The translations under genes were made by a program, and so were the position numbers. 64,000 nt of DNA from Brasilonema sp. CT11 (lineage in GTDB: Bacteria; Cyanobacteriota; Cyanobacteriia; Cyanobacteriales; Nostocaceae): contig NZ_JABXYX010000001.1 of assembly GCF_017982655.1 (NCBI RefSeq), positions 1-64,000 of the forward strand, read 5' to 3'. Positions within the stretch are counted from its first letter, which is position 1; every line of letters starts with the position of its first letter. A model generated the notes under the pieces. It saw only the letters and a list, made by a program, of their open reading frames with translations. It was not told where the DNA came from and ran no database searches. Of this stretch, positions 24,609 through 64,000 are shown in pieces.

Positions 24609-27600
24609 GGCACTTTGGTGGTGTTTGCCAAGAATTCTGCTTTTGTGTTGGAGCTTGGGCTGTAAATATGACTTCGCCCTTGGGACCGAATACCCAGCCA
24701 GTCGCTTCTAATATTGGGGCTGGTGTGGTAGGATTTGGATTGGTGGAAATATTTGTTCTAGAGTTTTTGTCTATTTCAGGGTTGAGTGTTACCCAATCTA
24801 CCTGCACGGCGTCAGGTGTGAGAATGTCTTTGGGGTTGGGAGGTAAGCCGCCGCGCCCGGTGATGATGAAACTGCTTTTCGCGTAGTTGGGGGAGTTGCA
24901 ACTTTGGGCAAGTTTGGTGTCAATTGGTACTGATGGTAAGTTAACTAAGTCACTGTTGACGTCGATGTCGGGTGTGTTTAGCTGAACTGTGCCGTTTACG
25001 CCAAATTCTGAACTGGCGGTGATGTCACTTAGAGAAGTTAGATTTTGGCGGGGTTGAATGCCATAGATGCCAAAGGCTTTAATGTCTACTCTACCACCAG
25101 TGCCAGTGAAGGCATTAGCGGTGATGTCGCTATTTTCTCTTGGGACAGCGACGATGAAGCCATTGGGAGCATTGATTGTGATGTTACCTCCGTCTCCAGG
25201 TTGCTGTGCTGTGCCTGCGGTGGTGGAAATTTCACTGCCGCGACGCAACAGCAATAAGTCCGCAATGTTCAACTTGAGGTTGCCGCCATTGCCAGAGAGA
25301 GTCTGTGCTGTAATCTCACCGTTGTCGAGGCGTACGGAATTAGCAGTAATACCAAGGTCACCCGCTACACCTTCTCCTCGGCTGCTGACTGTAATTGCTC
25401 CATCAGAGATAAGCAATTGCTGTGTAGTAATAGTCAAGTTTCCTCCTTTTCCTGTCCCCTGAGTGCCAGCAATCAAACCACTGGGAAACAGAGACCTACT
25501 ATCGGCGGAGATACCAATCAGTTGTATGCTGTCAGCAGTGACAGTCAAATTCCCGCCATTACCCGCACCAAATGTGGCAGCACCAACTTGTGCCCCATCG
25601 CGCACGAGTAACTGTTGGGTTTTAATCGTCAAATCTCCTGCATTCCCTGTGGAGTCTGGGTTAGCTTGAGCAGACAAGCCAGAGCGATTAATCAGTTGCA
25701 CTTTGTTGGCGGTGACAGTCAAGTTCCCCCCCTTGCCACTACCAAATGTGCCAGCACTGACTTGTGCCCCATTCTGAATCAGCAATTCACTTGCGTTAAT
25801 TCTCAAGTCTCCCGCATTCCCTGTTGCGCCTGAATAAGTAGAAGTAGACAACAGACTGGGAAACGGCTGACCATTGGCGAAGGTACCGGTACCAATCAGT
25901 TGCACTTTATTGGCGGTAACAGTCAAGTTCCCCCCCTTGCCACTACCAAGTGTGCCAGCACTGACCTGTGCCCCATTCTGAATCAGCAATTCACCTGTGT
26001 TAATTCTCAAGTCTCCCGCATCCCCGCTTGAGCCTGGGCGAGCTTGAGTACCCAAGCCGCTGGGAAACGATTGACCATTGACTTTGGTACCGGCACCAAT
26101 TAGTTGCACTCTATTGGCGGTGACAGTCAAGTTCCCCCCCTTGCCACTACCAAGTGTGTCAGTACTGACCTGTGCCCCATTCTGAATCAGCAATTCACCT
26201 GTGTTAATTCTCAAATCTCCCGCATCCCCGGTTGAGCCTGTGCTAGCATTCAAGCCGCTGGGAAACGAATTATCGGCGGAGCGAGCAAACCCAACCAGTT
26301 GCATCTTGTCTGCTGTAACAGTCAAATTCCCCCCCTTGCCACTACCAAATGTGCTAGTACTTGCTTGTGCTCCATCCTGAATCAGCAATTCACCTGTGTT
26401 AATTCTCAAGTCTCCCGCATTTCCGGTTGCGCCTGGATAAGCTTGAGCAAACAAGCCTCCGAAAATCTGACCATCGGCAGAGCGACCAACCCCAACCAGT
26501 TGCACCTTGTCAGCTGTAACAGTCAAATTCCCCCCCTTGCCACTACCAAATGTTCCAGTAACTACCTGTGCCCCATCCTGAATGAGCAGTTCCCTTGTGT
26601 TAATTCTTAAGTCTCCCGCATTTCCGGTTGCGCCTGGATAAGCTTGAGCCGACAAGCCGCTGAAAATCTGATCATCAGCAGCAGAGGTACCAATGACCTC
26701 CACTAACTCAGTAGCCTTCACAACCATTACTCCACCAGACTCCACCCCTAGAGTACTTGCCTCTATTTGGGAACCATTGGTCAGAGTGATGCGCCTGCTC
26801 CAAACTTGTATATCACCGCCACCCGCACCACTAGCATCTACTGCTGCCTGTTGAGATAATTGAATGTTCCCAAAGTTTTGCACACCATCATAGCCCAAAG
26901 CAAAACCTTTCTTAATGGGGGTGAGGCTTACTAAACTGTTATCTCCCACACTGCCCAATTCTATCCTTCCGCCAGCAGTCTTGAGCGTTGCCCCTTCTAA
27001 GCTGACATCACCCCCTACTAATGCTAAGGTTTGATTGGATGGCACTCGTAAACCAGATGTAGTATCAATCAGTTCAGTTGTTGTCCTAATTCCTTGTCCA
27101 TCACCCTGCACCTGAATCTTTCCCGGATTTGTCCCATATTGCAAACCAAGGGGGACACTCACAGTTAGCAGGGCTGCGCCTTGGGCAGGCTTTGCACTAA
27201 ACTCTGTACCATCCGCAAACTTCAAACTACTCGCCGTACTCGCTACAAACGAACCCCTAACATCCAAACTGGCATTTGGTCCAAAAATAATCCCATTTGG
27301 ATTAATCAAAAACAGATTAGCATTACCCAAAACACCAAGTTTCCCAAAAATCCTAGATGCGTCACTCCCCGTCACCCGACTCAGAATATTCTCAATCCCA
27401 CTTGGGTTAGCAAAATACGCCTCTCGTCCTTCACCGATATTAAATTGTGAGAAACTGTGAAACAGATTAGCACCGCGAATCGCTCCACCATCAATTCTGT
27501 CAGCTTGCGGGCTTGTTGGCGTGACCACAGAACTTTCTGCTCCTAAAGTCCTATCAGCCACAGGTTTGAGTTCTTGAGCAAGAGTGGAATTTGCAGAGAA

Positions 27601-27771
27601 TGCGAGTGGGAGCAACACGGCTGCGGCGATAAGCGTTTGCGTAGCGCGCCCTATGCCTGCGGCACGGCTACGCCTATCGGCGCTAGCTTGCTGCCAAAGG
27701 CAGATCGCACACACCGGAGAAATCCCTAACTTTAATAAAAGCCTGCACTTTTGAGCATTCATCTCTAACAA
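24598..27771 (-). CDS. Filamentous hemagglutinin-type exoprotein (TpsA), operon with TpsB
   Basis: A 1057-residue exoprotein. It has an unusually long basic N-region (residues 1-45) followed by a hydrophobic signal core (LIAAAVLLPLAFSANSTLAQ, ending at residue 66). The TPS/haemagglutination domain covers about 70-200 (GGAIRGANLFHSFSQFNI, FLINPNGIIFGPNASLD). A beta-helix with six repeats of 58-68 residues follows (about 383-770; GNAGDLRINTGELLIQ, GSGKGGNLTVTA). The C-terminal module is shared with the two tandem exoproteins (CNSPNYAKSSF, GLPPNPKDIL, LEATGWVFGPKGEVIF). Codons 23-45 derive from a palindromic interspersed repeat, so the signal region was extended by an insertion. It overlaps tpsB by 11 bp and is its probable cognate substrate. 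Confidence 0.9.
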   Translation of the reverse strand: MLEMNAQKCRLLLKLGISPVCAICLWQQASADRRSRAAGIGRATQTLIAAAVLLPLAFSANSTLAQELKPVADRTLGAESSVVTPTSPQADRIDGGAIRGANLFHSFSQFNIGEGREAYFANPSGIENILSRVTGSDASRIFGKLGVLGNANLFLINPNGIIFGPNASLDVRGSFVASTASSLKFADGTEFSAKPAQGAALLTVSVPLGLQYGTNPGKIQVQGDGQGIRTTTELIDTTSGLRVPSNQTLALVGGDVSLEGATLKTAGGRIELGSVGDNSLVSLTPIKKGFALGYDGVQNFGNIQLSQQAAVDASGAGGGDIQVWSRRITLTNGSQIEASTLGVESGGVMVVKATELVEVIGTSAADDQIFSGLSAQAYPGATGNAGDLRINTRELLIQDGAQVVTGTFGSGKGGNLTVTADKVQLVGVGRSADGQIFGGLFAQAYPGATGNAGDLRINTGELLIQDGAQASTSTFGSGKGGNLTVTADKMQLVGFARSADNSFPSGLNASTGSTGDAGDLRINTGELLIQNGAQVSTDTLGSGKGGNLTVTANRVQLIGAGTKVNGQSFPSGLGTQARPGSSGDAGDLRINTGELLIQNGAQVSAGTLGSGKGGNLTVTANKVQLIGTGTFANGQPFPSLLSTSTYSGATGNAGDLRINASELLIQNGAQVSAGTFGSGKGGNLTVTANKVQLINRSGLSAQANPDSTGNAGDLTIKTQQLLVRDGAQVGAATFGAGNGGNLTVTADSIQLIGISADSRSLFPSGLIAGTQGTGKGGNLTITTQQLLISDGAITVSSRGEGVAGDLGITANSVRLDNGEITAQTLSGNGGNLKLNIADLLLLRRGSEISTTAGTAQQPGDGGNITINAPNGFIVAVPRENSDITANAFTGTGGRVDIKAFGIYGIQPRQNLTSLSDITASSEFGVNGTVQLNTPDIDVNSDLVNLPSVPIDTKLAQSCNSPNYAKSSFIITGRGGLPPNPKDILTPDAVQVDWVTLNPEIDKNSRTNISTNPNPTTPAPILEATGWVFGPKGEVIFTAQAPTQKQNSWQTPPKCHEK
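25462..26625 (-). repeat. Six imperfect tandem repeats inside the TpsA gene
   Basis: Units starting at G-(N/D)-A-G-D-L lie at residues 383, 450, 515, 583, 651 and 709, giving periods of 67, 65, 68, 68 and 58 codons. The LRIN-ELLIQ-GAQ and GSGKGGNLTVTA segments are nearly invariant, while the 15-20 codons after the QLIG or QLVG motif vary. The layout parallels the repeats at 14795-15964 in an independent gene. Confidence 0.75.
27636..27705. repeat. Palindromic interspersed repeat inserted in frame in the TpsA signal region
   Basis: GCGTAGC (27639-27645) and GCTACGC (27667-27673) form a perfect stem around GCGCCCTATGCCTGCGGCAC. The G+C content is far above the flanks. This resembles the short palindromes scattered in Nostoc-type genomes. 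It contributes about 23 codons (WQQASADRRSRAAGIGRATQ) just before the hydrophobic signal core. Confidence 0.6.
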
Positions 27772-28492: not shown

Positions 28493-30229
28493 TTATTTTT
28501 CGATCAGGTAATCTTCAATTACTAAAGCATCTAATCCTGTTGTATAAAATACACTAATGGCGTCTTCAACTGAATGAATAATTGGCTTACCCATAATATT
28601 GAAGCTAGTATTTAATATTAGTGGGATACCAGTTAATTGATAAAATTCGTAGATCAGATCGTAGTATTTTTCTGACCATTCTCTTTTAACGCTTTGCAGG
28701 CGTCCTGTATTGTTAACGTGAACGACAGCGGGAACTTTTTCCAATACCTCTGATTTAAATTTTAAAGTTATATTCATATAGGGTGATTCCTGATAGTTAT
28801 CGAAATATTCATCTCCAAATTCATGTAATATTGATGGCGCTAAAGGACGAAATTTTTCCCGAAATTTTACTCGACTATTAATTCGATCCATCATATCTTC
28901 TGGGCGAGGATCTGCTAAGATTGAACGATTGCCTAAAGCTCTTGGACCGAATTCAGCCTTACCCTGCGCCCAACCAATGATTTTTCCCTGTGCTAGTAAA
29001 GCCGCTGCTTTTTTATGGATTTTACCAGGTAGATATTGCAAATCTTTAATGCTGCTAAACTTGCATAGATTGTCTAAAGTTTCTTTAGAAAAAGTTGAGC
29101 CTAAATATGGAGAGAAAAACCGCTTAGGAGGTTGAGCTTGGGGATTTTCTTCGTGATATGCTAGTAAGGCTGCACCGACGGCATTACCATCATCAGCAGG
29201 TGCAGAAGGGATATAGAGGCTGCGAAACTTGGTTTTTTCTAAAATTTGACCATTCCAGGTAGAATTAAGAGCACACCCACCACTCAAAGCTAAACAATCA
29301 GAAAATCCTCGGTCATATAAATTATTCAGCAGTTCTTCCATAATTTCCATAAAGATTAACTGCCCTGTATAAGCTAAATTAGCTGATATCAAAGGTGATT
29401 CATCTGGCTTTCGCATCATACTTTGGAGTTTTTCTATAACTGGAAAGTACAGATGGTTATTGAAATATATATCCAAACCTTTAACAGAAATCAGTGTTCG
29501 CAGCAATTGATACAAATTTTCATCGTATTTACCGTAGGGGGCTAGTCCCATTACTTTCCATTCTTCACCTTTAATGACATCAAAACTGCATAAAGCGCAG
29601 ACTAAAGCATAGAAATGTCCAAGATTACCATTACCAAAACCTTCCCAAGGATTTTTAAGTGTTGAGAGTTTACCGTGTTTATATTGGTAAAAATCATAAG
29701 ATCCCCAGCCCCCATAAGCATCAATAATTGCACAAACAGCTGTATCAAAGGAACTCGAATAACAAGCATTAGCGGCGTGGGTTAAGTGATGTTCGTAATA
29801 CTTTACCTGAGTGGAATTTTTAATTTCGTGATTACCAAGCATATTTTGACCTGCCAAAGTCATGTTGTTAGCTTGTCCCTGCATGGTAGTTTGCAAAGAT
29901 GGCCAAGGCCAATTTAGTTTTTTATAGAAATCATTAAAAATAGGTAAATTGCCAGTTAATCTGGAAAATTCGGACATAATTTTAGTTAGTGCAACGATGG
30001 GCTGGCTCCAGCTAATTGCTACAACTAATTCAGCTTTGGGAGAACAATACTCGCGGATTAATTCAGGTGTCCGAATTAAATGGTCTGGAGGACAGTTGAA
30101 TGCCCTCTTGTTCTGCATATATCTTTCAGTTGCCTCTGCAAAAACTACTTCTCCGTGCGGATTAACAATAGCTAAAGCTGAATCGTGGACTGAGGCAGAC
30201 AATCCAATATAAAATTTGTTTTGGCTCAT
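28493..30229 (-). CDS. O-carbamoyltransferase (NodU/CmcH/TobZ family)
   Basis: A 578-residue enzyme that transfers a carbamoyl group from carbamoyl phosphate through carbamoyl-AMP to a hydroxyl. It has the N-terminal ASKHA-type start (YIGLSASVHDSALAIV), the iron/catalytic motif HHLTHA at residues 147-152, DAYGGWGSYDFY, GEEWKVMGLAPYGKY, LALSGGCALNSTWNG, and the C-terminal YrdC-like carbamoyl-AMP part (GKAEFGPRALGNRSILADPR, FREKFRPLAPSIL, LNTSFNIMGKPI). The length is normal for the family. It starts 51 bp after the terminal PKS gene in the same direction and is the only tailoring gene visible. A carbamate on a polyketide hydroxyl is therefore the likely final modification. Confidence 0.92.
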   Translation of the reverse strand: MSQNKFYIGLSASVHDSALAIVNPHGEVVFAEATERYMQNKRAFNCPPDHLIRTPELIREYCSPKAELVVAISWSQPIVALTKIMSEFSRLTGNLPIFNDFYKKLNWPWPSLQTTMQGQANNMTLAGQNMLGNHEIKNSTQVKYYEHHLTHAANACYSSSFDTAVCAIIDAYGGWGSYDFYQYKHGKLSTLKNPWEGFGNGNLGHFYALVCALCSFDVIKGEEWKVMGLAPYGKYDENLYQLLRTLISVKGLDIYFNNHLYFPVIEKLQSMMRKPDESPLISANLAYTGQLIFMEIMEELLNNLYDRGFSDCLALSGGCALNSTWNGQILEKTKFRSLYIPSAPADDGNAVGAALLAYHEENPQAQPPKRFFSPYLGSTFSKETLDNLCKFSSIKDLQYLPGKIHKKAAALLAQGKIIGWAQGKAEFGPRALGNRSILADPRPEDMMDRINSRVKFREKFRPLAPSILHEFGDEYFDNYQESPYMNITLKFKSEVLEKVPAVVHVNNTGRLQSVKREWSEKYYDLIYEFYQLTGIPLILNTSFNIMGKPIIHSVEDAISVFYTTGLDALVIEDYLIEK

Positions 30230-50193: not shown

Positions 50194-53100
50194 TTAGCTT
50201 GATTCTTGAGTAAATTTTTGTCCAATTTCTTGATCAGACATTTCATTTAAATCTATCAAAAATTTTTCAAAATTCAGGTCGTTGACCAAAGCTTTATTAT
50301 CATCTTCTCTCACTTCATCCGGAGCTGCAACATGAAAAATTTCCAGCATCAAATAACCTACTAAGCTTTTGACGTTGGGATAGTCAAAAGCTAAAGTTGA
50401 CGGCAATTGCAATTCTAAGCTAGATTGAATACGGTTTTTCAATTCAACCGACGTTAAAGAATCCATCCCCATCTCGAAAAAACCTTTATTATCATCTACT
50501 AATTCTACTGTTTTTAACCCCAAAACTTGAGCAACTAGCGTGCGAATATGCTCCATTAGTTTAGTTTTTATTTTTTCTGGAGGAAATGTTTTGAGTTGTT
50601 GTAACAATTCAACCGTTGGTGCTCGCTGCGGCGAAACTGACTGAAGCTCAGAACAGAAGGATAAATTCGAGTACGAGGTTGAATATTGCGACCAGTTAAT
50701 GGGAATCACTGCTACTTGTACCCCATTGTCCGCTAATAATCTTTCTAGGATTTGTCCCACTGTTTGGGGCGGGATGGTTCCTATTCCTGTTTGCTGCAAA
50801 TTTTGGACAAGTTGACTGTTAGCGGCGGCTCCTACTTCGGCGACGGCTCCCCAGTTAATACTCAATCCCGCTAATCTTTGGGCACGACGTTGGTATGCTA
50901 AAGCATCGAGAAAAGCATTAGCCGCTGCATGGTTGGCTTGACCGATATTGCCAAAAATAGCAGTTGCTGAAGAAAAGAGGATGAAGTAATCTAAAGGTTG
51001 CTCTTTCGTCAAGTGATGTAAATTCCATGAGCCTAATACTTTAGCTGCCAAAACTTGCTCGAATTGCTCCCAAGATAAATGCTGTAACGTACTATCTTCT
51101 AATATTCCAGCTGCATGAAATATTCCTTTTAATGGTGGGAGAGATTGTTCGATTTCTATTAATAAATTAGTGCTTTGCTCGACTGATGAAACATCAGCTT
51201 GAGCAACCACAACTTGAGCGCCTGCTTGCTTTAATTGTTCAATTTGCGCTTGGATAGAAGGTGTGGCTCTATTTCTACCAACTAGCACCAAGTGTTTAGC
51301 TCCTTTTTCTACCATCCAGCGAGCTACCAGCAATCCTAAGCCGCCTAGTCCACCTGTAATTAAATAGGTACTATTTTCCCGGAAATGGATTGAAGATTCC
51401 TTAGAGGTAGTTGACTGGCTTCGGACTAACCTAGGTACTTTACGCATACCTTGGCGAAATGCGATTTGATTTTCTGTACTAGGAGAGGTAATTTCTGCTA
51501 AAAGTTCTGTAATGCGATCGCCGAGCTCGGCTTGAGGATCTAAATCTATCCGAACGCAATTAAGTTCTGGATGTTCTAAACCGATTACTTTTCCCATTCC
51601 CCAGATCGGAGATTGGACAACGGACGAAACTGATTCTAATCCTACTGGTTGTCCGCCTTGAGTAACTAAACACAAAGATGGTAGTTGAGTAAATTTAGCT
51701 TTAACTAAAGCTTGAATTAGGTGTAAGGTGCTGCCGCAGCTTAATAAAGCAGCAGCTTTTAAATCATTCTCAGCCGCATCCACACTCCAGCAGTGGACAA
51801 TTCCATGTAAAGGTGACAGGCGATTGACGGCTGCTAATAATTGCTCGAATTCTTTTGAATGACTAGGATTAACTTGGAACTGGCTAGCTGCAATCTGTTG
51901 GTAATCAGCACCGACAAATACTAAAGTGCATTTTTCCCCTTGACGGGACAGGCGGTTAGCTAATTCTTCCCCTATACCTTGGCGATCGCTAAAAATAAGC
52001 CATTGTTTAGCTGCCGACGATAGAGATAATGGTTGGGGAGGATTGACAGCTAAAAATACCGCCTGTTGAGCTAGATCTTCTCCTGGCTGTTCGTCAGCAT
52101 TAATTGTTACTATTTGTTCAAATCTTGTTACTGATAATAGTTGTTGCCATTTCTCTTGCGATAATAGAGGATAATTTTGTCTCCAGTCTCGATCTTGAAA
52201 TTTCCACCAGCCGTCAGTTAATCCAAAAGTTAAATCTATCCAATTTTGCGCTGATGTCGCTTCCAGTAAGACTAATAATCCTCCTGGTGCTAGTAATTGG
52301 CGGATATGGTTTAAGGTTGTGAGTAGATTTTCAGTGGCGTGTAGCACGTTAGCCGCTACTATTATGTCGTATTTTTCAGGGCTAAAACCTTGTTGGATGG
52401 GGTTTTTCTCGATATCTAATACTTGATATTTAACAAAAGGATATCTCTGAAACTTTTGGGCTGCTTGACTGACAAAAGCTGCCCCCACGTCAGTAAAAGT
52501 ATATTCTGTTTGTTCGGGATTTAAAATTGGTAATAGATGAGTCGTAGTTCCCCCAGTTCCGGCACCGATTTCTAAGATTCGGACTCCTGTAGATTGGGGC
52601 AGTTTTTCTAGTGCTATCTTAACTGCTTGTTGCACTAGGTTATTCATAGCTAACGCTACCGGGGATTCTTGATAAAGTCGGCTTACTGTTAGTGAATTTT
52701 CTGAGTCGAATAATAATTGTACTGGTTCGGTTTTTCCCTGCAAAACCGAAGCTAGTTGGCTACCACAACAATCGAGTAAGCTTGCTTCTATGCCAATTAA
52801 ATCAAGTTCTAATTTTTCTTCTGGTAAGGATTCAGGAATGCTAACAATTTGCCAATGGTTATCTCTCTTCAGTAAATATCCTGATGAAGCTATAATTTCT
52901 AACAAGCGATTTAGTAAGCGGTTATATCGCGGAATCATCTGCACTTCGGCAGCAATTTCTAGAGTTGTAAACTGTCGATTAATTTGCCATTGCCATCCTA
53001 ATTCTCGGAAAGCTTGCAGGATATATTTAAGAGCTAAAATATCTAATTTTTCGATAGCACTTCTGTAAAGCTTAAGTCGGGTTTGACTTAGCAGTTCAGG

Positions 53101-56100
53101 TTGATTGGATATTTTTGCATAGATAGCTTGAGGAGTTAGTAGCCATTGCTCTACAAAGCCAAAACTAACTTGCGATCGCCATTCAATTTCATAAAGCCAA
53201 TCTTTAATTTCGCTGGCGTTTATTTCTTGGTGCTGGCTAGCGATTAGTTGTAAGATTTTAGGTACTAGAGTTAGTTCTAACTCTGACAATTGCCCAGTGT
53301 TTTTTAGTAGATTAACTAACTTTTCTGGATTGGATGTACTTAAATTAATAATTGATGCTTCATCTTTGTTGGTAATAGTTGCGTTTGATTTTGTTTTTAC
53401 CCAATACCTTTGCCGTTGCCAAGGATAAGTGGGAAGAGATAACCGCCGAGATGGATAATCTCGATGAAATTCCAGCCAATCAACTGTGACACCACTAACA
53501 TACAAAGCAGCTAAAGTGTCTAGGATTTGCTGCCAATCCGATTTTTGCGGATTGAGAGTAGCTAACCACTGGATTTCTACAGTTGACCAACCGATTTTAC
53601 CGATAGTTGTTAAAGTTGGTTTGGGGCCAATTTCTACAAAAATTTCATAGCCATTTTGGATGAATTGATCTATAGCATCAGCCCATCTTATAGGTTGAGT
53701 AATATGTTTTATCCAATAATCGGGAGCGGCAATTGATTCATTTGCCCAAGTACCAGTTAAATTAGAGATTAAATCTAAGCGAGGTTCTGAATAATTAATT
53801 TGCCGAGCAATTTGACTGAATTCTGCTAGAACTGGTTGCATCAGGGGAGAATGAAACGCCCCAGAAACATTTAATTCTTTTGTTTTTACTCCCATTCTTT
53901 CTAAATGGGCGACAATCAGATCGATTTGGGTTGATGCTCCAGAAATGACCAAATTTTCCGAGCCATTAAAAGCAGCGATCGCCACAGATGTAAAATCCGC
54001 GATCACGTCGCGAATCATTTTTTCTTTTCCCCAAACTGCTACCATTTTACCTGCTTGAGCCTTGTCTTGCATCAAGCGACCTCGATGGGCAATTAGTTTT
54101 AAGCCATCTGCTAAACTAAATACGCCAGCGACGCAAGCAGCAACGTATTCTCCCACACTATGACCCATAACTGCCTGGGGTACAATTCCCCAAGATTGCC
54201 ATAATTGATAAAGGGCGTATTCAATCGCAAATAAAGCGGGTTGAGTGTAGGCTGTTTGCTGTAATTTTTCGGGATCTGAATGCAGGATTTCTAATAAGGG
54301 GATATCTAAATATGAGTTGAGAATTTTTCCACAGCGATCAAGAGCTTGGCGGAAAATAGGTTGGGTTTGATAAAGCTGTTTTCCCATCCCTAAATATTGC
54401 GAACCTTGACCGGAAAATAAAAATGCAATTTTCGGTGTTTTTTTGCTATTAATTGCGCCAGAGTCGGTCTTAGCGATGAAACTACCTAACAGTTGGCGCA
54501 CTTCTTGGTGAGAACTAGCAACGATACCGAGACGATAAGGAAAATGCGATCGCCCGGTCTGGAGAGTATAGCAGATTTCGCTTAAAGATTGTTGGGAGTC
54601 AGCGTCTAAATAATCGAGGTAACGCTGGGCTAATTGTTGCAGTGCAGTCGTTGTTTTAGCTGATAGTACGAACAGATGAATAGGGTGATTTGATTGCGTT
54701 AGCGAGGTAGGAAGATTTGGTGCAGCTTCGAGAACAACAAAAGCATTAGTTCCACTAGCACCAAACGAACTTACCCCTGCGATGTGCCTTTGATTTATAC
54801 TTTGCCAAGGCAGTAATTCGGTAGGTACTTGAATTGGCAAACTTGACCAATTAATTTGAGGATTAGGTTGATGAAAATGCAAATGTGGGGGAATTTGTTG
54901 ATGTTGCAGGGCAAGTACCACTTTGATTAAACCTGCAATTCCTGCCGCCCCTTCTAAATGTCCAATGTTAGTTTTAACTGAACCAATTAATAAAGGTTGG
55001 TGTAAAGAACGATTTTTACCAAATACTGCACCTAAAGCCGATACTTCGAGCGGATCGCCCAAGGCAGTACCAGTACCATGAGTTTCAACATAACTAACTG
55101 CATTAGGGACAATTTTGGCATTTTCCAAAGCTTGATGAATCACCGCTTCTTGTGCCAATTGATTGGGAACGGTTAAACCACTGCTGCGTCCATCGTGGTT
55201 AACTGCCGAACCGCGAATAATCGCTAAAATTCGATCTCCATCAGCTATAGCTGCCGAAAGTCGCTTGAGTAAAATGACTCCACAACCTTCGCCTCTGACA
55301 AAGCCATTAGCTGTCGCATCAAAGGTTTTGCAGCGATTATCTGGAGATAGCATTCCGGCTTTACATTCGATGGCGCTGGTGACAGGCGAAATAATTAAAT
55401 TTACTCCCCCTGCTAAAGCTAGATCGCATTCTCCATTTCGCAAACTCTGACTAGCTAAATGCACTGTTACCAAAGAGGAAGAACAGGAAGTATCTAAAGT
55501 AATGCTTGGTCCTTGTAAACCTAAAAAATAAGATAAGCGTCCCGATGCAAAACTAATGGCATTGCCAGCCGCCGTATAGGTATCAACTAAAGTAGGATCG
55601 TAAGTCAAGTGAGCATAATCTTGATTCATTACACCTACGAATACCCCAGTTTTACTACCTTGGAGGCGAGCAGGTGATATACCTGCTCTTTCAATTGCTT
55701 CCCAACTTACTTCTAATAATAATCTTTGTTGAGGGTCAATGCTGTTTGCTTCTCGCGGCGATATGCCGAAGAAATCAGCATCAAATTCATCAACCTGATT
55801 TAAAAAACTCGCCCCACGAGCGTAAATTTTTCCTCGCTGATTCGGATCGCGATTTTCGTAAGCGTTAACATCCCAACGTTCTGGAGGAATATCTGTAATT
55901 CCGTCAACGCCATTGCGTAAAAGTTGCCAAAAAGCTTCGGGAGTATCCGCCCCAGTTGGGAATCGACACCCCATCCCGATAATTGCGAGCGGTTCAGTTT
56001 TAGCTTGCTCCATGCTGGTAAGCTGATTTTGCATTTTTTCCAGCTTGACCAGGGCATCTTTCATTAAAGCGCGATAATCTAAACCAGGTGATTGATTAGT

Positions 56101-56103
56101 CAT
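50194..56103 (-). CDS. Type I PKS module: KS-AT-CMT-KR-ACP
   Basis: A 1969-residue module. It has a docking helix, a KS with Cys207 in [25 protein letters not shown] and [16 protein letters not shown]. The AT is intact ([34 protein letters not shown]; malonyl type). There is no DH: a linker of about 80 residues leads into the CMT ([19 protein letters not shown]). The KR (GGLGGLG) has LED in place of LDD and His in [11 protein letters not shown]. The ACP Ser is residue 1882. The predicted unit is an alpha-methyl beta-hydroxy group, which makes this one candidate site for carbamoylation. It begins 14 bp after the preceding PKS gene. Confidence 0.93.
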
Positions 56104-56117
56104 AATATTTCCGTTTC

Positions 56118-59100
56118 TTATTCATCCATATTGGCTAGTTTTTCAGCCAATAAACTAGCGAGTTCTTCTTCTGATTGCCCATCAAAGGTAACTGAAGATT
56201 CATTTACCCGATAGTCAACTGGGGATTCTGCTATATATTCCTCAGCAAAATTCGCAGATAAAACTTCCTCCGTCAGATATTGGGCTAGTTTTTCCACTGT
56301 TGGATATTTAAAAGCCAAGGTTGAGGGTAAATTGCAAGACAAACTGGTTTGCAAACGATTCCTCAACTCTATAGATGTCAGGGAGTCCATCCCCATATCA
56401 AAGAAACCTAAGTGGACATCAATCTCGGATGGAGGTAAACTCAGAACGCCTGCAATTTGATTACAGATATGCTCGACTAATAGTGCTCGCCGTTTGTAAC
56501 TAGCAACTTGCGTTAATTGTTGTAGAAAATCTTCTGGTGGCAGGTTAACTGTGGCGGTTGCTGTGATGAATTCAGCTAAAAATGGGGTAGCAGCCCGTTG
56601 AGCCATAAATTTTGACCAATCTATAGATACTGCTCCTACCTGAGTGAAATTGCCACTCAACACCTCCTCCAAAACTTGCAATCCTTCCGTTGGGGTAAAA
56701 GTTGTCATTCCTTTGCTTGTCCATTTTTCCTCAAATTGCGGATCAGCAGCGGCTCCAATTTCCGCCCAAGGTCCCCAGTTAATGCTCAATCCCGGTAATC
56801 CCATCGCCCTACGATGGTAAGCTAAAGCATCGAGAAAGGCATTAGCAGCAGCGTGGTTAGCTTGACCTGCATTACCCAATAGAGCGGCGACAGATGAGAA
56901 CATCACAAAATAATCTAAGGGCAAATCTTGAGTCAAACAGTGTAAATGCCACGCTCCAGCCACCTTCGGAGCCATTACCCCCATAAACCGTTCCCAGGAT
57001 AATTGTTGGATCGTGCCATCATCAAGTACCCCAACTGCATGAATTATTCCTCGTAATGGGGGCAGCGATCGCTTAATTTCTGCTAAAACTTCAGCAACTT
57101 GTTCTGATTGAGTCACGTCAGCTTGTTTGACGGTGACTTTTGCGCCCATTTCGGCTAATTCTGCTAACTTGATTTCGGCTAATGGTTGCACTCCGCTACG
57201 CCCGACTAGTACTAAATGACGCGCTCCTTGTTCGACTAACCATTTAGCTATCACCAACCCCAAACCGCCTAAACCACCAGTCATTAAATAAGTGGCATCT
57301 GACCGAAAGGTCAAGAGTTTTCTATCAGTTAGAGTGGCGCGAACTAATCTAGGCACCCATCGCTTACCGTGACGAAATGCGATGCGATTTTCAGGCTGCG
57401 GCAATGAAATTTCCGCAAATAAACTTTGGACATCTGCGACTATATCCTCGCCAGATAAATCTACTTGAACGCAATTTAATTCTGGATGTTCTAGGGCGAT
57501 CGCTGTCCCCATACCCCATAAAGGAGATTGCACTAATCCCGAACACAAATCATCAGAAATAGGGGCTGTCGCGGTTTGAGTTACTAGCCACAAAGGAGGC
57601 GATTTCTCTAAGTTTGCTTCAGCCAAAGTCTGAATTAAATGTAAGGTACTGCCACAGCTTATTAAAGCAGCGGCTTCTAAATCAGTGTCAGTGGCATCTA
57701 AACTCCAACAATGGACTATGCCATCTAGAGATGTTAATTGAACTGCGTTTAATAACTGCTGAAAGTCTTGTGGTTCACGGGGATTAACATAAAATTCATG
57801 AGAACTAATTTGCTGATATTCTGTCCCAGCCCAAACTAAAATGCAAGGGTTTGATCGCATTTTTAGTAATTGCTCTAATTCTGGTGCTACTCCTGAGCGA
57901 TCGGCTAAAATCAGCCAATTCTTTGATGCTGCTTGGTCTTGACTAACTAAGTCAGTTTGAGCCAGAATCAAGCTGGGTTGACCAAATTCTTTACCTATTT
58001 CTACATCAGCTAAACTAGTACTACTGTTAAATCCATTCTCACAGAGCAAATCAAGCCATTTTTGAGTTTTTAATAAAGGATAGTTTTTGCGCCACTCAAT
58101 ATCGGTAAATTTCCACCATCCCTCAGTTAAACCAAAAGTAATATCGATCCAAGGTTGAGCCAAGGTTTCCTCTAGCAAAATTAGTAACCCACCAGGAGCT
58201 AATAAACTCTTGATATGAGCTAAAGTTTGGCTTAAATTTGCTGTAGCGTGGCAAACGTTAGCAGCTACGATGATGTCATATTGTCCGAGACTAAACCCCT
58301 GCAATTCGGGAGCAATTTCAATATCTAAAACTTGATATTTAACAAAGGGAAACTCCGCAAATTTCTGTGCTGCTTGAGTAGTAAAGATTGCTGCCACATC
58401 GCTAAAAACGTATTCTGTTTGTTTCGGCTGAAAAATTGGCAGTAAATCGGCAGTCGTTCCTCCAGTTCCCGCCCCAATTTCTAGCACTCGCACCCCTAGA
58501 GAGCTAGGGAATTTTTTAATAGCTGATTCTACAGCTTTTTGCACTAACCTATTCCAAACTACGGCTACAGGCGAGTGCTGATAAATTGCTCTAAGAGTGT
58601 TAAAATCTCCTTGAGGAAATAACAGATCTAAAGGATCGCATTCTCCTGTTAATACTTGGGCTAATCGACTGCCGCAACGTGTCACGAAGGTTACTTCTGG
58701 TTCTGCTTCTGAACATTCAGCTAATATTTCAATTTGGTAAGCTTGGGGGTCGATGAAATTGGGTAATTGGATGACTTCCCAAGCGCGATCGCCTGACTTA
58801 ATCAATCCAAATTCGGCGAAAACTTTTAGAATGCGGTTGAGCCAACGGTAATATTTTGAGGCTAAACCGATTTTTTGGGCTAATTCTTCTGAAGTAAACT
58901 TGTGACCGAATTGCCAGCGCCACCCTAGCCTATCAAAACCTTTTATGATATACGTAACCGCTAAAATATTAATTTTCGTCAAAGCAGCTTCGTAAGTTAA
59001 TATATTATCTGTAATTTGAGGTAAAGCTAATTCTGATTTGAGATTTTGGTAAATTTCTAAAGGAGTCGCTAAGTTTAATTTAGAGCCAAATTTTACCTGA

Positions 59101-62100
59101 TTAATCCACTCGACATTGTAAAAGAAATTATTTTTTAATTTGCTACTGTTTTCTAAGAAAGACGTTTGACTAACTGGTTGAAATTGAACTCCTAGTAAAG
59201 TAGCAATTTCTTTGCCATTGGAATTGAACAAACGCAGATCGTAAATTGGCTCAGATGATTTCTTCTCAAGCGATCGCCGTTTTCCTTCAATCCACAAACA
59301 GGTATCAACATTGCCATAAACTTGGTATTTGTCTACTCCTATTGGTAAATAACTTTGTGCGGCTCCCTCATGCATTAATGCAGCTACTATTACCTGCAAA
59401 CTACCATCTAATAACACAGGATGGAATTGATATTTACTAATTTCTGGGGTCAAAAATTCTGGAAACTCAATTCGACCTCTGACCAAATCGCCTTGTTGCC
59501 AAATTTGTTTGAGAGTTTGAAAACTCGCTTTTAATTCAATGCCCCAATCTTGCAGTTGTTGATAAAATGTAGTAATGGATTCTAGCTGATTTTGCCAAAG
59601 ATTCAAATCAATCAGACTTTCTGCTGTTGTTTTTGCAGCTAGCTTAACCATTTTACCGCTAGCATGAAGCCTCCATTCTTGATAAGCTATATCATCAACA
59701 ATTTCACTGCTAAAAATCTCGAAACTATAACTATTTTGAGTCTCAGGAGTTAAAATTAACTGAATTTGAATTTGTCCGACTTGGGGGATAACTAATGGTT
59801 GTTGAATGTGAAGATTTTCAATAGTGAAATCAGAGGAGGACCAAACTGATACGATCGCAGCCAAAGCCATCTCTAGATAGGCTGTGGTTGGTAAAATTAT
59901 TCTGTTATAAACCTGATGATCTAAGAGATAACTAGGTTGCGATCGAGCCAGGTAGCTTTGAAACTGAATTGTTTTTAAAGGTGAAGATAAGCGTTTGCCA
60001 ATTAAGGGATGTCCCTCTAGTAATAATTGGGGTAGTGAATCATTAGTGGAAGTTTCTAACCAATAACGCTGTCTTTGCCAAGGATAAGTAGGTAATTGTA
60101 AGTAATTGCGGAGATAATGTTGATCGAATCCACGCCAATCTATGCCTACACCATTAATATACAAAACTGCTAAACTATTTAAAAGCTCTTGCCAATCCGA
60201 TTTTTGTGGATTCAGAGTAGATAACCATTGAATCCGATCTAATGCCAATAAATTTTTATTAGTTGAGCCTAATCCTATTTCTAAACAAAATTCACTTTTT
60301 AAAGCAATTATTCTATTTATAATAGATTGAATATCATGATGCTCGTTAATTTCACTATGCCAATAAGATGGATTGGAAATTTCATCCTTAATTATATTTC
60401 CAGTTTTACTAGAAATTAAGTTAATTTGCGGCTGAGAATAATTTAGTTGTTTCGCAACTAAATTGCGAGATGAATTACTTTGAGCAGCAACTAACTTTAA
60501 TCCATCTTCTAAATTGAAAACTCCAGCGATACAAGCAGCAACATACTCTCCAACGCCATAGCCCACAACTAAATTAGGTGTTACTCCCCAGGATTGCCAT
60601 AGTTTACATAAAGCATACTCCAAAGCAAATAAAGCAATTTTCGTATAGCTATCTGACAGGTTATGGGGAAAATAAAGAATTTTAATTAATGGTATTTTTA
60701 GTTCACGCTCTAAAATTTCAGCACAGCGATCTAAAGCTTGGCGAAAGACTGGTTGAGTGTCGTAAAGCTGCTGACTAATAGGTAGATTGAATGATAGTTC
60801 TCCTGAAAAGAAAAAGGTCACTTTCGGGACTGAGTTTAAGGATACCTGACCCGAATACAACTGAGGTAAAGATTGACCTTGAGTAAAAGCAAGTAACTGT
60901 TGGGATAGTTCAGTAGTTGAAGACGCGATCGCGCTGAATCGATAGGCAAAATGCGACCGACCAGTATTAGCAGTAAAACAAAGATCTCCTATAGGTGAAT
61001 TCGGATACTTTTGCAAAAAGCGATCATATTCACCAGCTAATTGCTGCAAACCTTGGGGAGTTTTTGCCGTAATGGTCAAAATATGTAGCGGACGATCTTG
61101 TTCAGACGCGAAATTTGAGCCAGCGCCGTGCTGCGCCAACGCTGGCTCCCGTTGAGGCGTCTGGCGTCGCGTCTCTACATTTGGGGTTTCTTCTAACACC
61201 ACATGAACGTTTGTACCAGCAAAACCAAAGGAACTTACCCCAGCAATTCGGCGTTTTTCTTCTGGCAGCCAAGGTATTGTTTCGGCAGCAACTTTAATGG
61301 GCAATTCTTCCCAAGGGATATAGGGATTAGGCTGTTGGAAATGTAAATTAGCAGGAATTTCTTGATGTTGCAAACACAAAACAACCTTGATTAAACTAGA
61401 AATTCCTGCCGCAGCTTCTAAATGACCGATGTTAGTTTTTACCGAACCAATAATTAAAGGTCTTTCTGAAGGGCGATCTTGACTGAATACTGCACCTAAA
61501 GCACCAACTTCGATGGGATCTCCTAAAGATGTGCCAGTACCGTGTGCTTCCACATAATCTACTTGATGGGGAGCAATTTTAGCGTTGGCGAGTGCCTGAC
61601 GAATTACTGCTTGTTGAGAAGGACCATTAGGTGCAGTTAAACCGCTAGTTCTACCATCTTGGTTAACCGCCGAACCGCGAATTACAGCTAAAATTGTGTT
61701 GCCGTCAGCTAATGCGTCTGATAGTCGTTTGAGAACGATCGCGCCGCATCCTTCCCCCCGCACAAAGCCATCTGCTTTACGATCAAAAGTTTTGCAACGA
61801 CCATCAGGCGCAAGCATTCCCGCTTGAGCAAAATTGATACTTAATCCAGGTGCTAACAAGCGATTAACACCACCAGCTAGAGCTAAGTTACACTCTCGGT
61901 TACGCAAACTTTGACAAGCCAAATGTACTGCTAATAAAGAAGAGGAACAAGCAGTATCCACCGCCATACTCGGTCCGTTCAAACCTAATAGATAAGATAT
62001 CCGTCCGGCTGCCGGACTTAACAGCGTACCCGTTCCCGCATAAGCATCAATACAACTCGGACTAGCTGCCCCAAACAGCCGCATCGCATAATCAAAGGTA

Positions 62101-62570
62101 CTAATTCCAATAAAGACACCAGTTGCACTACCAATGATATTTTCTGGTACAATATTGGCAGATTCTAAAGCTTCCCAGGTAACTTCTAATAACAAACGCT
62201 GTTGTGGATCGAGTTTCACTGCCTCACGGGGGGCGATTCCGAAAAACTGAGAGTCAAATTTGTCTGCATTGCCAATAAATCCCCCGTAACGGGTGTTCAT
62301 TTTTCCTGGAACATCTTGATGACTGGAGTAGTAAGTATCAATATCCCAGCGATCGCTCGGTACTTCGGTAATGGCATCAGTTTTATTTTTGACTAATTCC
62401 CAAAAAGCTGCCGGGTTATCACTTCGTCCTGGCAAACGACAACCCATACCAATGATTGCGATTGGTTCCGTCTTGGTTGATTCTACTGCGTTGAGCTTGG
62501 CTTGCATATCTGACAAAGCCATCAACGCCCGCCGCATAGTTGATAAAGATTGATTTGATTCTGAGTTCAT
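56118..62570 (-). CDS. Type I PKS module with degenerate AT: KS-(AT)-DH-CMT-KR-ACP
   Basis: A 2150-residue module. The KS (36-460) is intact: Cys208 in VDTACSSSLL, His343 in EAHGTGT, His383 in TNIGHLEAAAGI. The AT region (about 584-835) is degenerate: GQGSQY is replaced by GELSFN, the nucleophile motif reads GYGVGE (670-675) without Ser, and about 85 residues holding the AFHSP motif and catalytic His are missing after residue 697. The DH keeps His885 (LDHQVYNRIILP) and Asp1055 (LLDGSLQ). The CMT has [10 protein letters not shown] at 1362. The KR (LDD motif) has His1906 at the usual Tyr position. The ACP Ser is 2063. The KS-AT linker (466-489) is repeat-derived. AAGGG precedes the ATG. The predicted unit is alpha-methyl enoyl, if the module is supplied with an extender by another AT. 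Confidence 0.92.
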   Translation of the reverse strand: MNSESNQSLSTMRRALMALSDMQAKLNAVESTKTEPIAIIGMGCRLPGRSDNPAAFWELVKNKTDAITEVPSDRWDIDTYYSSHQDVPGKMNTRYGGFIGNADKFDSQFFGIAPREAVKLDPQQRLLLEVTWEALESANIVPENIIGSATGVFIGISTFDYAMRLFGAASPSCIDAYAGTGTLLSPAAGRISYLLGLNGPSMAVDTACSSSLLAVHLACQSLRNRECNLALAGGVNRLLAPGLSINFAQAGMLAPDGRCKTFDRKADGFVRGEGCGAIVLKRLSDALADGNTILAVIRGSAVNQDGRTSGLTAPNGPSQQAVIRQALANAKIAPHQVDYVEAHGTGTSLGDPIEVGALGAVFSQDRPSERPLIIGSVKTNIGHLEAAAGISSLIKVVLCLQHQEIPANLHFQQPNPYIPWEELPIKVAAETIPWLPEEKRRIAGVSSFGFAGTNVHVVLEETPNVETRRQTPQREPALAQHGAGSNFASEQDRPLHILTITAKTPQGLQQLAGEYDRFLQKYPNSPIGDLCFTANTGRSHFAYRFSAIASSTTELSQQLLAFTQGQSLPQLYSGQVSLNSVPKVTFFFSGELSFNLPISQQLYDTQPVFRQALDRCAEILERELKIPLIKILYFPHNLSDSYTKIALFALEYALCKLWQSWGVTPNLVVGYGVGEYVAACIAGVFNLEDGLKLVAAQSNSSRNLVAKQLNYSQPQINLISSKTGNIIKDEISNPSYWHSEINEHHDIQSIINRIIALKSEFCLEIGLGSTNKNLLALDRIQWLSTLNPQKSDWQELLNSLAVLYINGVGIDWRGFDQHYLRNYLQLPTYPWQRQRYWLETSTNDSLPQLLLEGHPLIGKRLSSPLKTIQFQSYLARSQPSYLLDHQVYNRIILPTTAYLEMALAAIVSVWSSSDFTIENLHIQQPLVIPQVGQIQIQLILTPETQNSYSFEIFSSEIVDDIAYQEWRLHASGKMVKLAAKTTAESLIDLNLWQNQLESITTFYQQLQDWGIELKASFQTLKQIWQQGDLVRGRIEFPEFLTPEISKYQFHPVLLDGSLQVIVAALMHEGAAQSYLPIGVDKYQVYGNVDTCLWIEGKRRSLEKKSSEPIYDLRLFNSNGKEIATLLGVQFQPVSQTSFLENSSKLKNNFFYNVEWINQVKFGSKLNLATPLEIYQNLKSELALPQITDNILTYEAALTKINILAVTYIIKGFDRLGWRWQFGHKFTSEELAQKIGLASKYYRWLNRILKVFAEFGLIKSGDRAWEVIQLPNFIDPQAYQIEILAECSEAEPEVTFVTRCGSRLAQVLTGECDPLDLLFPQGDFNTLRAIYQHSPVAVVWNRLVQKAVESAIKKFPSSLGVRVLEIGAGTGGTTADLLPIFQPKQTEYVFSDVAAIFTTQAAQKFAEFPFVKYQVLDIEIAPELQGFSLGQYDIIVAANVCHATANLSQTLAHIKSLLAPGGLLILLEETLAQPWIDITFGLTEGWWKFTDIEWRKNYPLLKTQKWLDLLCENGFNSSTSLADVEIGKEFGQPSLILAQTDLVSQDQAASKNWLILADRSGVAPELEQLLKMRSNPCILVWAGTEYQQISSHEFYVNPREPQDFQQLLNAVQLTSLDGIVHCWSLDATDTDLEAAALISCGSTLHLIQTLAEANLEKSPPLWLVTQTATAPISDDLCSGLVQSPLWGMGTAIALEHPELNCVQVDLSGEDIVADVQSLFAEISLPQPENRIAFRHGKRWVPRLVRATLTDRKLLTFRSDATYLMTGGLGGLGLVIAKWLVEQGARHLVLVGRSGVQPLAEIKLAELAEMGAKVTVKQADVTQSEQVAEVLAEIKRSLPPLRGIIHAVGVLDDGTIQQLSWERFMGVMAPKVAGAWHLHCLTQDLPLDYFVMFSSVAALLGNAGQANHAAANAFLDALAYHRRAMGLPGLSINWGPWAEIGAAADPQFEEKWTSKGMTTFTPTEGLQVLEEVLSGNFTQVGAVSIDWSKFMAQRAATPFLAEFITATATVNLPPEDFLQQLTQVASYKRRALLVEHICNQIAGVLSLPPSEIDVHLGFFDMGMDSLTSIELRNRLQTSLSCNLPSTLAFKYPTVEKLAQYLTEEVLSANFAEEYIAESPVDYRVNESSVTFDGQSEEELASLLAEKLANMDE
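61117..61172. repeat. Palindromic repeat inserted in frame in the KS-AT linker (short form)
   Basis: GAGCCAGCG (61117-61125) and CGCTGGCTC (61140-61148) form a perfect 9-bp stem around CCGTGCTGCGCCAA, followed by CCGTTGAGGCGTCTGGCGTC. It encodes RRQTPQREPALAQHGAGSN in the same frame and at the same protein position as the longer copy at 40946-41036. Confidence 0.7.
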
Positions 62571-62582
62571 CTTTGCCCTTGT

Positions 62583-64000
62583 TTAATAATTTAAACTGTT
62601 TAACTTACTAATCAACAAAGCTTCAAGTTCGTTAGCTGATAAATTGTCTACATCTAATAACTCTGAAGTAGGCTCAATTAATACTGGCTGAGCCGATGAT
62701 TTGATAGTGGGTGGAGCAGCAAATTCTGGCAATAGCACTTCTAAAATCAAATAATCAACTAAAGCTGCTACTGTTGGATAATCAAAAGCCAAGGTTGCAG
62801 GTAAAGAGACATCTAAAGTAGTTTGCAAGCGATTTCGCAAATCAATAGAAGTAAGCGAATCCATCCCCAAATCGAAGAAACCTTTTTGCCAATCTACAGA
62901 TTCAGGAGAGTTTAAACCTAAAACTTTTGCTACCTGAGTGCGAACACAATTGCCTAATACTTCTCGGCGATCGCTCTGTGGAGTTTGTTGAAGTTGCTGT
63001 CGCCAATTAACGGGTTTTGTCGGTGATCGATCCGTTACCGCTACTTGGTGGAAGTTTTCCCAAAACGGGGCAGCACCTCTTTTAGCAATGAACTGCGCCC
63101 AATTAATCCCCACTGCACCTACTTGGATCGGAGGTTGTTCGCATAGATATTCCAATAGTTGCAATCCTTGTTCAGGAGTCATGGAATTAATGCCTTTACT
63201 CTGCCATTGTTCGCTAATTTCCCCTTGGGCAGCAGCCCCTACTTCAGTCCAAACTCCCCAATTAATACTCAATCCTGGCAATCCTTGAGCATGGCGTTGA
63301 TAAGCTAGGGCATCTAAAAAGGCATTAGCCGCCGCATGGTTAGCTTGACCTGCAGAACCGAGTAAAGAAGCAGCAGAAGAAAATAGAATTAAGTCTATCG
63401 GGCGATCGCCTATTAATTCGTGTAGTATCCAAGTTCCTGTTACTTTGGGAGCCATCACTTTAGCGAAACGCTGCCAAGATAACTGCTGTAAAGTTCCGTC
63501 GTCTAGGACTCCCACTGCATGAATAATTCCTCCTAATGGTGGCATTCTGCGCTCAATCTCTGCAAACACTTGCGTCATACGTTCTTTATCGCAGACATCG
63601 GCTTGAATTAGCTCAATTCTGACTTCAGCTTGAGCTAATTTGGCTAATTGATCAGCAAGTTCAGGTTTAACACCACTACGCCCCAATAAAACTAAGTTTT
63701 TCACTCCTTTTTTAACTAACCAATCAGCCACTACCAACCCCAAACCGCCAAAGCCGCCCGTAATTAAATAAGTTTTCTCGCTGCTAAAGCGAATCGGTGG
63801 CGATTGAACCGCCTGAGGTTGATTGACTAACCGAGATACATACCGATTACCGTTACGCAAAGCAATTTGATTTTCTGGGGTTGAGGCGTAAATTTCTGCG
63901 AGTAAAGTTGTCGCATTTTCCTCAATTGTGGTATTTGGGTCTAAATCAATATAGGTACATTGTAATTCTGGATGTTCTATATTGATAACTTTGCCCATTC
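62583..64000 (-). CDS. Type I PKS module, C-terminal part (KR-ACP), partial at the window edge
   Basis: About 472 codons of a gene whose 5' end lies beyond the right edge. The Met at 63998 is internal (part of a WGMGKVI-type motif), not the start. What is visible is the end of the structural KR half, the catalytic KR half (TGGFGGLGLVVADWLVKKG, LDD motif, INWGVW) with His in [11 protein letters not shown], an ACP (GMDSLTSIDLRNRL) and a docking tail (LSANELEALLISKLN). It ends 12 bp before the next PKS gene. The sequence matches the other modules, so the missing part probably includes KS, AT and CMT. The predicted unit has at least a beta-hydroxyl. Confidence 0.92.
   Translation of the reverse strand, partial: MGKVINIEHPELQCTYIDLDPNTTIEENATTLLAEIYASTPENQIALRNGNRYVSRLVNQPQAVQSPPIRFSSEKTYLITGGFGGLGLVVADWLVKKGVKNLVLLGRSGVKPELADQLAKLAQAEVRIELIQADVCDKERMTQVFAEIERRMPPLGGIIHAVGVLDDGTLQQLSWQRFAKVMAPKVTGTWILHELIGDRPIDLILFSSAASLLGSAGQANHAAANAFLDALAYQRHAQGLPGLSINWGVWTEVGAAAQGEISEQWQSKGINSMTPEQGLQLLEYLCEQPPIQVGAVGINWAQFIAKRGAAPFWENFHQVAVTDRSPTKPVNWRQQLQQTPQSDRREVLGNCVRTQVAKVLGLNSPESVDWQKGFFDLGMDSLTSIDLRNRLQTTLDVSLPATLAFDYPTVAALVDYLILEVLLPEFAAPPTIKSSAQPVLIEPTSELLDVDNLSANELEALLISKLNSLNY

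Follow-up and report, generated by a model that had tools for sequence, protein, structure and literature searches.

An acyltransferase without its small subdomain in a polyketide synthase module of Brasilonema sp. CT11, and its recurrence in Cyanobacteriales

The window analysed here is a stretch of 64,000 nucleotides from Brasilonema sp. CT11 (order Cyanobacteriales; contig NZ_JABXYX010000001.1, positions 1 to 64,000), and the subject is a polyketide synthase (PKS) module whose acyltransferase (AT) is degenerate. As followed on the contig beyond the window (locus L001), the PKS line starts with AprA-like N-terminal, winged-helix, and MT2-like domains and an acyl carrier protein (ACP). Six modules follow, built from ketosynthase (KS), AT, dehydratase (DH), C-methyltransferase (CMT), enoylreductase (ER), ketoreductase (KR), ACP, and thioesterase (TE) domains. 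Module 1 is KS-AT-DH-CMT-KR-ACP, module 2 is KS-AT0-DH-CMT-KR-ACP, module 3 is KS-AT-CMT-KR-ACP, module 4 is KS-AT-DH-CMT-ER-KR-ACP, module 5 is KS-AT-CMT-ACP, and module 6 is KS-AT-DH-CMT-KR-ACP-TE. AT0 denotes the degenerate AT of module 2 and its counterparts elsewhere. The features are listed in Table 1.

Table 1. Features of the module 2 gene and of the adjacent PKS genes, in window coordinates
Feature	Position	Strand	Remarks
Module 2 gene	56118..62570	minus	KS-AT0-DH-CMT-KR-ACP, 2150 aa, single open gene
KS	61338..62468	minus	Residues 35-411, triad C-H-H intact
AT0	60060..60827	minus	AT core without small subdomain, 256 aa including post-AT linker
GQGSQ (oxyanion motif) position	60789..60803	minus	Reads GELSF
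GHSVGE (nucleophile motif) position	60546..60563	minus	Reads GYGVGE, Ser to Gly
Junction	60459..60494	minus	About 85 residues gone (small subdomain and AFHSP segment)
DH	59163..60011	minus	Pfam match and signature
CMT core	58161..58553	minus	Pfam match and signature
KR	56760..57296	minus	Pfam match and signature
ACP	56274..56468	minus	MGMDSLTS
Module 1 gene, end	62583..63998	minus	3027 aa, runs past the window; AprA-like loading part and ACP, then module 1 with a normal AT; candidate loader
Module 3 gene	50194..56103	minus	KS-AT-CMT-KR-ACP; normal AT at 53500-54423; candidate loader

The acyltransferase remnant of module 2

The preliminary description of the window, made from the sequence alone, had placed a degenerate AT at 60051-60833, devoid of the Ser nucleophile, the GQGSQ motif, and about 85 residues including the AFHSP motif. 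Position and description both hold. Pfam matches on the module 2 protein comprise ketoacyl synthase, DH, methyltransferase, KR, and PP-binding domains and a partial Acyl_transf_1, the PF00698 match covering profile positions 1-122 of 319 (residues 585-703; 59.7 bits, cut-off 32.7). When aligned with normal ATs, AT0 lacks the stretch from about HRGRLM to beyond AFHSPLM. Residues 713-797 of the curacin synthase CurL (4mz0) have no counterpart in AT0, since the phmmer alignment stops at 712 and resumes at 798; this makes 85 residues, with exact ends that vary with the alignment. In terms of AT structure, the missing segment is the small ferredoxin-like subdomain together with the catalytic His.

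The rest of the module is retained. The KS triad (DTACSSS / EAHGTG / NIGHLE) has lost none of the residues whose loss marks a non-elongating KS, and the signatures of DH, CMT, and ACP were all found, as the preliminary description had it; that of the KR, which it did not name, is also present. Thus, among the residues of a cis-AT module, the Cys-His-His of the KS and the Ser of the ACP are in place, while the Ser and His of the AT are absent. The module is one without a working AT, as in trans-AT PKSs, and one in which the GHS Ser is replaced and the remainder kept, as in module 12 of the irumamycin PKS. The sequence supports the view that module 2 is unable to load itself. The KR of module 2 has His in place of the usual Tyr of YxxxN, as do the KRs of modules 1, 3, and 4; all four read NHAAAN with His at the catalytic Tyr position (window 42450-62570; L001 4584-13667), and that of module 6 has Tyr. 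In the DH of module 1, the HxxxGxxxxP motif is altered to HWVYEFLVV with F or L at the Pro position, and this holds in two genera (L001 4584-13667; L023 2-4930).

In the Brasilonema sp. CT11 genome, 27 AT matches were found, four of them partial: the one in the window, two on contig C351, and one at C171:84887. The C351 pair was rejected as AT0, being one AT split by an unreadable run of sequence, while C171:84887 is a second genuine AT0. When the 256-aa AT0 was searched against 59 genomes (own genome included), 13 full-length matches without the large gap were found in eight genomes. The closest outside the own genome, in a second Brasilonema genome (G002), is a 95%-identical orthologue with the identical junction. 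A genome of another genus (G028) has the same module architecture, 58.5% identity over the gene, and a related cut. Resequencing had been proposed as a check, and it is answered in silico by the G002 orthologue.

Recurrence of AT0 in the order

Is this common in the order? I surveyed 388 genomes, scoring up to six candidates per genome, so that the counts are lower bounds. Since the alignment also runs through normal ATs by way of insertions, AT0 was told from AT by alignment span (723-921 bp versus about 1020-1170 bp for the other listed rows). At least 30 AT0 rows were found in at least 25 genomes. With two more from G002, one from G007, two from G017, and one from G028, the set comprises 36 AT0 modules. 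It was compared with 33 normal modules whose KS is nearly complete, which come from the same loci and are not a random sample. The cut ends and the size vary among the AT0s, and some retain part of the small subdomain; the 921-bp row (G339, L074) keeps a piece of it, lacks the AFHSP segment, and was counted as AT0. Four of the 36 retain the GHS Ser (L003, L026, L076, L019). Separately, 18 loci from named genomes were kept out of the AT0 counts: four have a short span (Brasilonema, Nostocaceae MO_167.B47, Microcoleus FACHB-1515, and Nostocales HT-58-2), and 14, including those from other phyla, have a normal span.

In the KS tree (69 rows), the AT0 label requires 12 changes, 11 of which are forced by well-supported branches, while in the AT-core tree (77 rows) it requires ten, six of them forced. 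The two trees therefore differ in the number of losses, a disagreement of which AT swaps could be the source. The AT0 of L085 adjoins the AT of the neighbouring module in the core tree, which is where it would fall after duplication of a module and a later cut in one of the copies. The window KS groups with KSs from modules that carry an AT, in a tree without trans-AT reference KSs.

The 36 modules fall into several sorts. Six have an intact KS and ACP with FkbH and a discrete AT nearby, in hybrid settings of nonribosomal peptide synthetase (NRPS) and PKS (L003, L026, L021, L025, L073, L077; for L026, FkbH and AT are known by family search only). Extender sets of this FkbH type, with their discrete AT, make methoxymalonyl- or hydroxymalonyl-ACP. 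Genes for hydroxyacyl-CoA and acyl-CoA dehydrogenases lie by all five of the modules inspected for them (L003, L021, L025, L073, L077). FkbH is above the cut-off in 13 of the 29 AT0 genomes, in some of them away from the AT0. The own genome also has an NRPS-PKS cluster (L028 4304-11392) with FkbH (TIGR01686, 280 bits, cut-off 147), hydroxyacyl-CoA dehydrogenase, acyl-CoA dehydrogenase, an AT-ACP didomain, and a discrete AT.

In 11 modules a KS His is replaced (EVQGTG, EVNGTG, ETQGTG, NIGYLE, and close variants; L022, L069, L070, L071, L072, L074, L075, L083, L086, L087, L089), as against none of the 33 normal modules (Fisher p 0.0004). Judging from these residues, the 11 are probably non-elongating rather than trans-loaded. 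Another six have lost the ACP Ser (L019, L067, L078, L079, L082, L088), which amounts to 6 of 28 AT0 modules with a readable ACP versus 0 of 25 normal ones (p 0.024). A further six, namely the window module, L017, L023, two of L018, and L020, have an intact KS and ACP on contigs that lack a discrete AT match, and seven remain unsorted (L024, L068, L076, L080, L081, L084, L085). On independent tree pairs, AT0 and the KS defect coincide in 2.5 of 11 pairs, with none the other way (median p 0.25); once ACP defects are added, 4.3 pairs agree and none disagrees (median p 0.125). Since these relatedness-corrected pairs are not significant, the association of AT0 with KS or ACP defects is suggestive, not proven.

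Several of the KS-defective modules form KS0-AT0-ACP proteins, with the KS His changed to Gln or Asn (L022, L075, L086, L087, L089; L070, L071, L072, L074). An NRPS-type protein follows in L070-L074; the next protein in L022 carries a TubC_N docking domain, and that in L089 is similar by eye. Their architecture suggests non-extending bridges to NRPS. The L022 type was rejected as the heterocyst glycolipid synthase HglC, because the next protein starts with TubC_N and no such NCBIfam name was found in the five proteins scanned. The KS-AT0-ACP proteins without the ACP Ser have an intact KS triad and occur in several families of the order. Beta-branching was also rejected as a common context, as HMG-CoA synthase (PF08540) is present in 4 of the 29 AT0 genomes, three times on another contig than the AT0 and in G294 on the same contig, about 92 kb away.

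Loading and function of module 2

Selection was assessed as the ratio of nonsynonymous to synonymous substitution rates (dN/dS) by the Nei-Gojobori method; because many dS values are high, the figures are rough. Between the two Brasilonema genomes, module 2 gave 0.03 for the KS (KS2), 0.33 for the DH, 0.18 for the CMT, 0.42 for the KR (4 nonsynonymous and 3 synonymous changes), and 0 for the ACP (0 and 1). Its AT0 gave 0.30 (14 nonsynonymous, 13 synonymous), and the normal ATs of the line 0.19-0.37. Against G028, the values were 0.06 for KS2, 0.41 for AT0, 0.33 for the DH, 0.16 for the CMT, and 0.13 for the ACP, dS of the KR being saturated. KS2 has the lowest dN/dS of the module 2 domains with enough changes to measure; the KS of module 3 gave 0.20 (second Brasilonema) and 0.11 (G028). 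The AT0 core is under purifying selection (dN/dS 0.30-0.41). From the 36 AT0 rows, AlphaFold2 gave an AT0 model with a predicted local distance difference test (pLDDT) of 83.2 and a predicted template modelling score (pTM) of 0.84, whose best PDB match is the CurL KS-AT (template modelling score, TM, 0.85). For the KS-AT0 didomain, pLDDT was 85.4 and TM to CurL 0.90. The KS-AT framework is thus predicted to stand without the small subdomain.

AT0 would then be the catalytically dead remnant of what was once a normal AT, from which the small subdomain with the His segment was excised and the Ser lost, and whose large core may be kept as a structural spacer between the KS and the following domains. 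I lean towards the view that module 2 is elongating, with a neighbouring AT or FabD loading it in trans. Malonyl would reach ACP2 through another enzyme, the likeliest ones being the AT of module 1 (AT1), that of module 3 (AT3), and the housekeeping FabD. I favour extension of the chain because KS2 is highly constrained, as are the CMT and ACP of modules 1 and 2 over the longer distance. Against G028, the CMT and ACP of module 2 (0.16 and 0.13) resemble those of module 1 (0.12 and 0.09), and therefore both modules seem to process their own unit. Trans loading is plausible in this order, given the six AT0 modules with an intact KS and ACP beside FkbH and a discrete AT. In addition, no AT match was found in the AprA-like loading part, so that the line may already rely on borrowing. 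The three genomes with module 2 share a single AT match as small as a free AT, a 293-aa frame of FabD size.

Several results weigh against this view. No discrete AT was found on the 216-kb contig of the window, since all six PF00698 matches lie within frames of 1577-3048 aa. As 11 of the 36 AT0 modules are probably non-elongating, AT loss alone is no sign of extension. Nor is an intact KS proof of it: in L018 (1004-4834), a KS-AT0-DH-ACP with an intact KS comes after a KS-AT-KR-ACP, and from its domains this looks like a dehydrating pair. The His for Tyr leaves the activity of the module 2 KR uncertain. Identity of the DH between genera is 45% for module 2 and 66% for module 1. Finally, comparison of the two Brasilonema genomes speaks against constraint on the CMT of module 1, with six nonsynonymous changes and one synonymous change (dN/dS 1.96, from few changes).

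The main rival, possible though doubtful, is that module 2 is non-elongating: KS2 would pass the chain from ACP1 to ACP2 without a new unit, and the DH, CMT, and KR of module 2 would finish the work of module 1. The loss of a KS His in 11 AT0 modules, the L018 pair, the altered HxxxGxxxxP of the module 1 DH in two genera, and the fast-changing module 1 CMT are all in its favour. However, the Cys-His-His of KS2 is kept in all three genomes that have the module, and KS2 is highly constrained; moreover, independent pairs give no significant link between AT0 and KS defects. The CMT and KR of module 1 are also constrained against G028 (0.12 and 0.09), which would make a second set of the two redundant.

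It is improbable that module 2 is in decay and bypassed by a chain that goes from ACP1 to KS3. Over the longer distance AT0 does change faster than the AT of module 3 (0.41 vs 0.20 against G028), and its branch in the core tree has a length of 0.81, but the frame is open without stops, the measurable domains have dN/dS below 0.5, and the same architecture persists at 58% identity in another genus. Loading by a discrete AT on contig C171, beside an FkbH gene, is most improbable. A search for a discrete AT had been proposed in the preliminary description; while it drew a blank on the window's contig, it did reveal an AT-ACP didomain and a 453-aa AT on C171. However, G028, which has the same module 2, has 14 AT matches with only one of free-AT size (293 aa), two of the 14 being fragments at contig edges in a genome not fully read. 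That AT0 is an assembly or sequencing error is ruled out for practical purposes, because the second Brasilonema genome has the same junction, in line with the related cut in another genus and the 36 places with AT0.

As for the surroundings, the first gene of the line is similar in G028, where modules 1 to 3 keep the same order. Upstream of the loading part (L001 13738-16070; L092 91-2643) lie two adjacent small Rubrerythrin-like proteins and a methyltransferase, and similar genes stand at the equivalent place in G028, by eye. A carbamoyltransferase (PF16861, PF02543; window 28493-30229) closes the line, and therefore the product may be carbamoylated. Three genes at window 20176-27771 resemble, by eye only, a two-partner secretion pair and a TPR/CHAT-like protein.

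Known systems and consequences

A single inactive AT in an otherwise cis-AT line is already known. In the irumamycin PKS, the AT of module 12 has Gly for Ser, and reuse of module 11 was proposed, with carrier T12 reaching AT11 (PMC11672594). Unlike the window module, module 12 is the last of its line; motifs and Ser are lost, and the available text mentions no excised subdomain (PMC11672594). Modules without a working AT also characterise trans-AT and mixed cis/trans-AT PKSs (PMC11907408, PMC10394414); both module types occur in 122 PKSs and 351 PKS-NRPS hybrids of 8799 (PMC10394414). In contrast to trans-AT PKSs, the AT core remains in the window module, and no stand-alone AT match is on the contig. 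For algal PKSs, a scenario has been described with integrated ATs giving way to ATs that act in trans (PMC4661987), but these are eukaryotic, entire lines lack AT, and a half-excised AT is unmentioned in the available part of that work. A PKS gene with a truncated AT was reported for pepstatin (PepC), in a cluster counted as cis-AT (PMC12081711); unlike module 2, it is a single-module gene, and the missing part is unspecified in the text available (PMC12081711). CurL of curacin, the nearest solved structure, has the same KS-AT arrangement with a complete AT, AT0 being about 85 residues shorter. The FkbH-type sets with a discrete AT lie near six AT0 modules of the order, but a family search gave no FkbH match on the window's contig. 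A literature search, with most subscription journals outside it, found no account of excised AT small subdomains in cyanobacteria in the texts available. The repeated excision may be new.

The preliminary description had spoken of a cis-to-trans AT transition. The loss of self-loading is supported, while the transition is one of several possible outcomes among the 36 AT0 modules, 11 of which have a broken KS triad. It is tentatively proposed that in-frame excision of the small subdomain, with the core kept as a scaffold, may be a general and repeated route to AT independence in cyanobacterial cis-AT lines, taken at least six times according to the AT-core tree and perhaps at least 11 according to the KS tree. 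The modules might then be loaded in trans, serve in non-elongating transfer or processing, or persist as KS units whose carrier no longer works; on this proposal, the window module would be a full elongating one that borrows its neighbours' malonyl without a dedicated trans-AT.

In the rules for reading clusters, one AT is counted per elongating module. The AT0s in the scanned genomes are above the Pfam AT cut-off, and therefore such modules can pass as normal and their products can be mispredicted. Modules with an intact AT, with AT0 and an intact KS, and with AT0 and a broken KS or ACP form a series whose natural intermediates bear on how a cis-AT module loses its AT. The series also marks where an AT may be cut with the KS-AT framework still standing.
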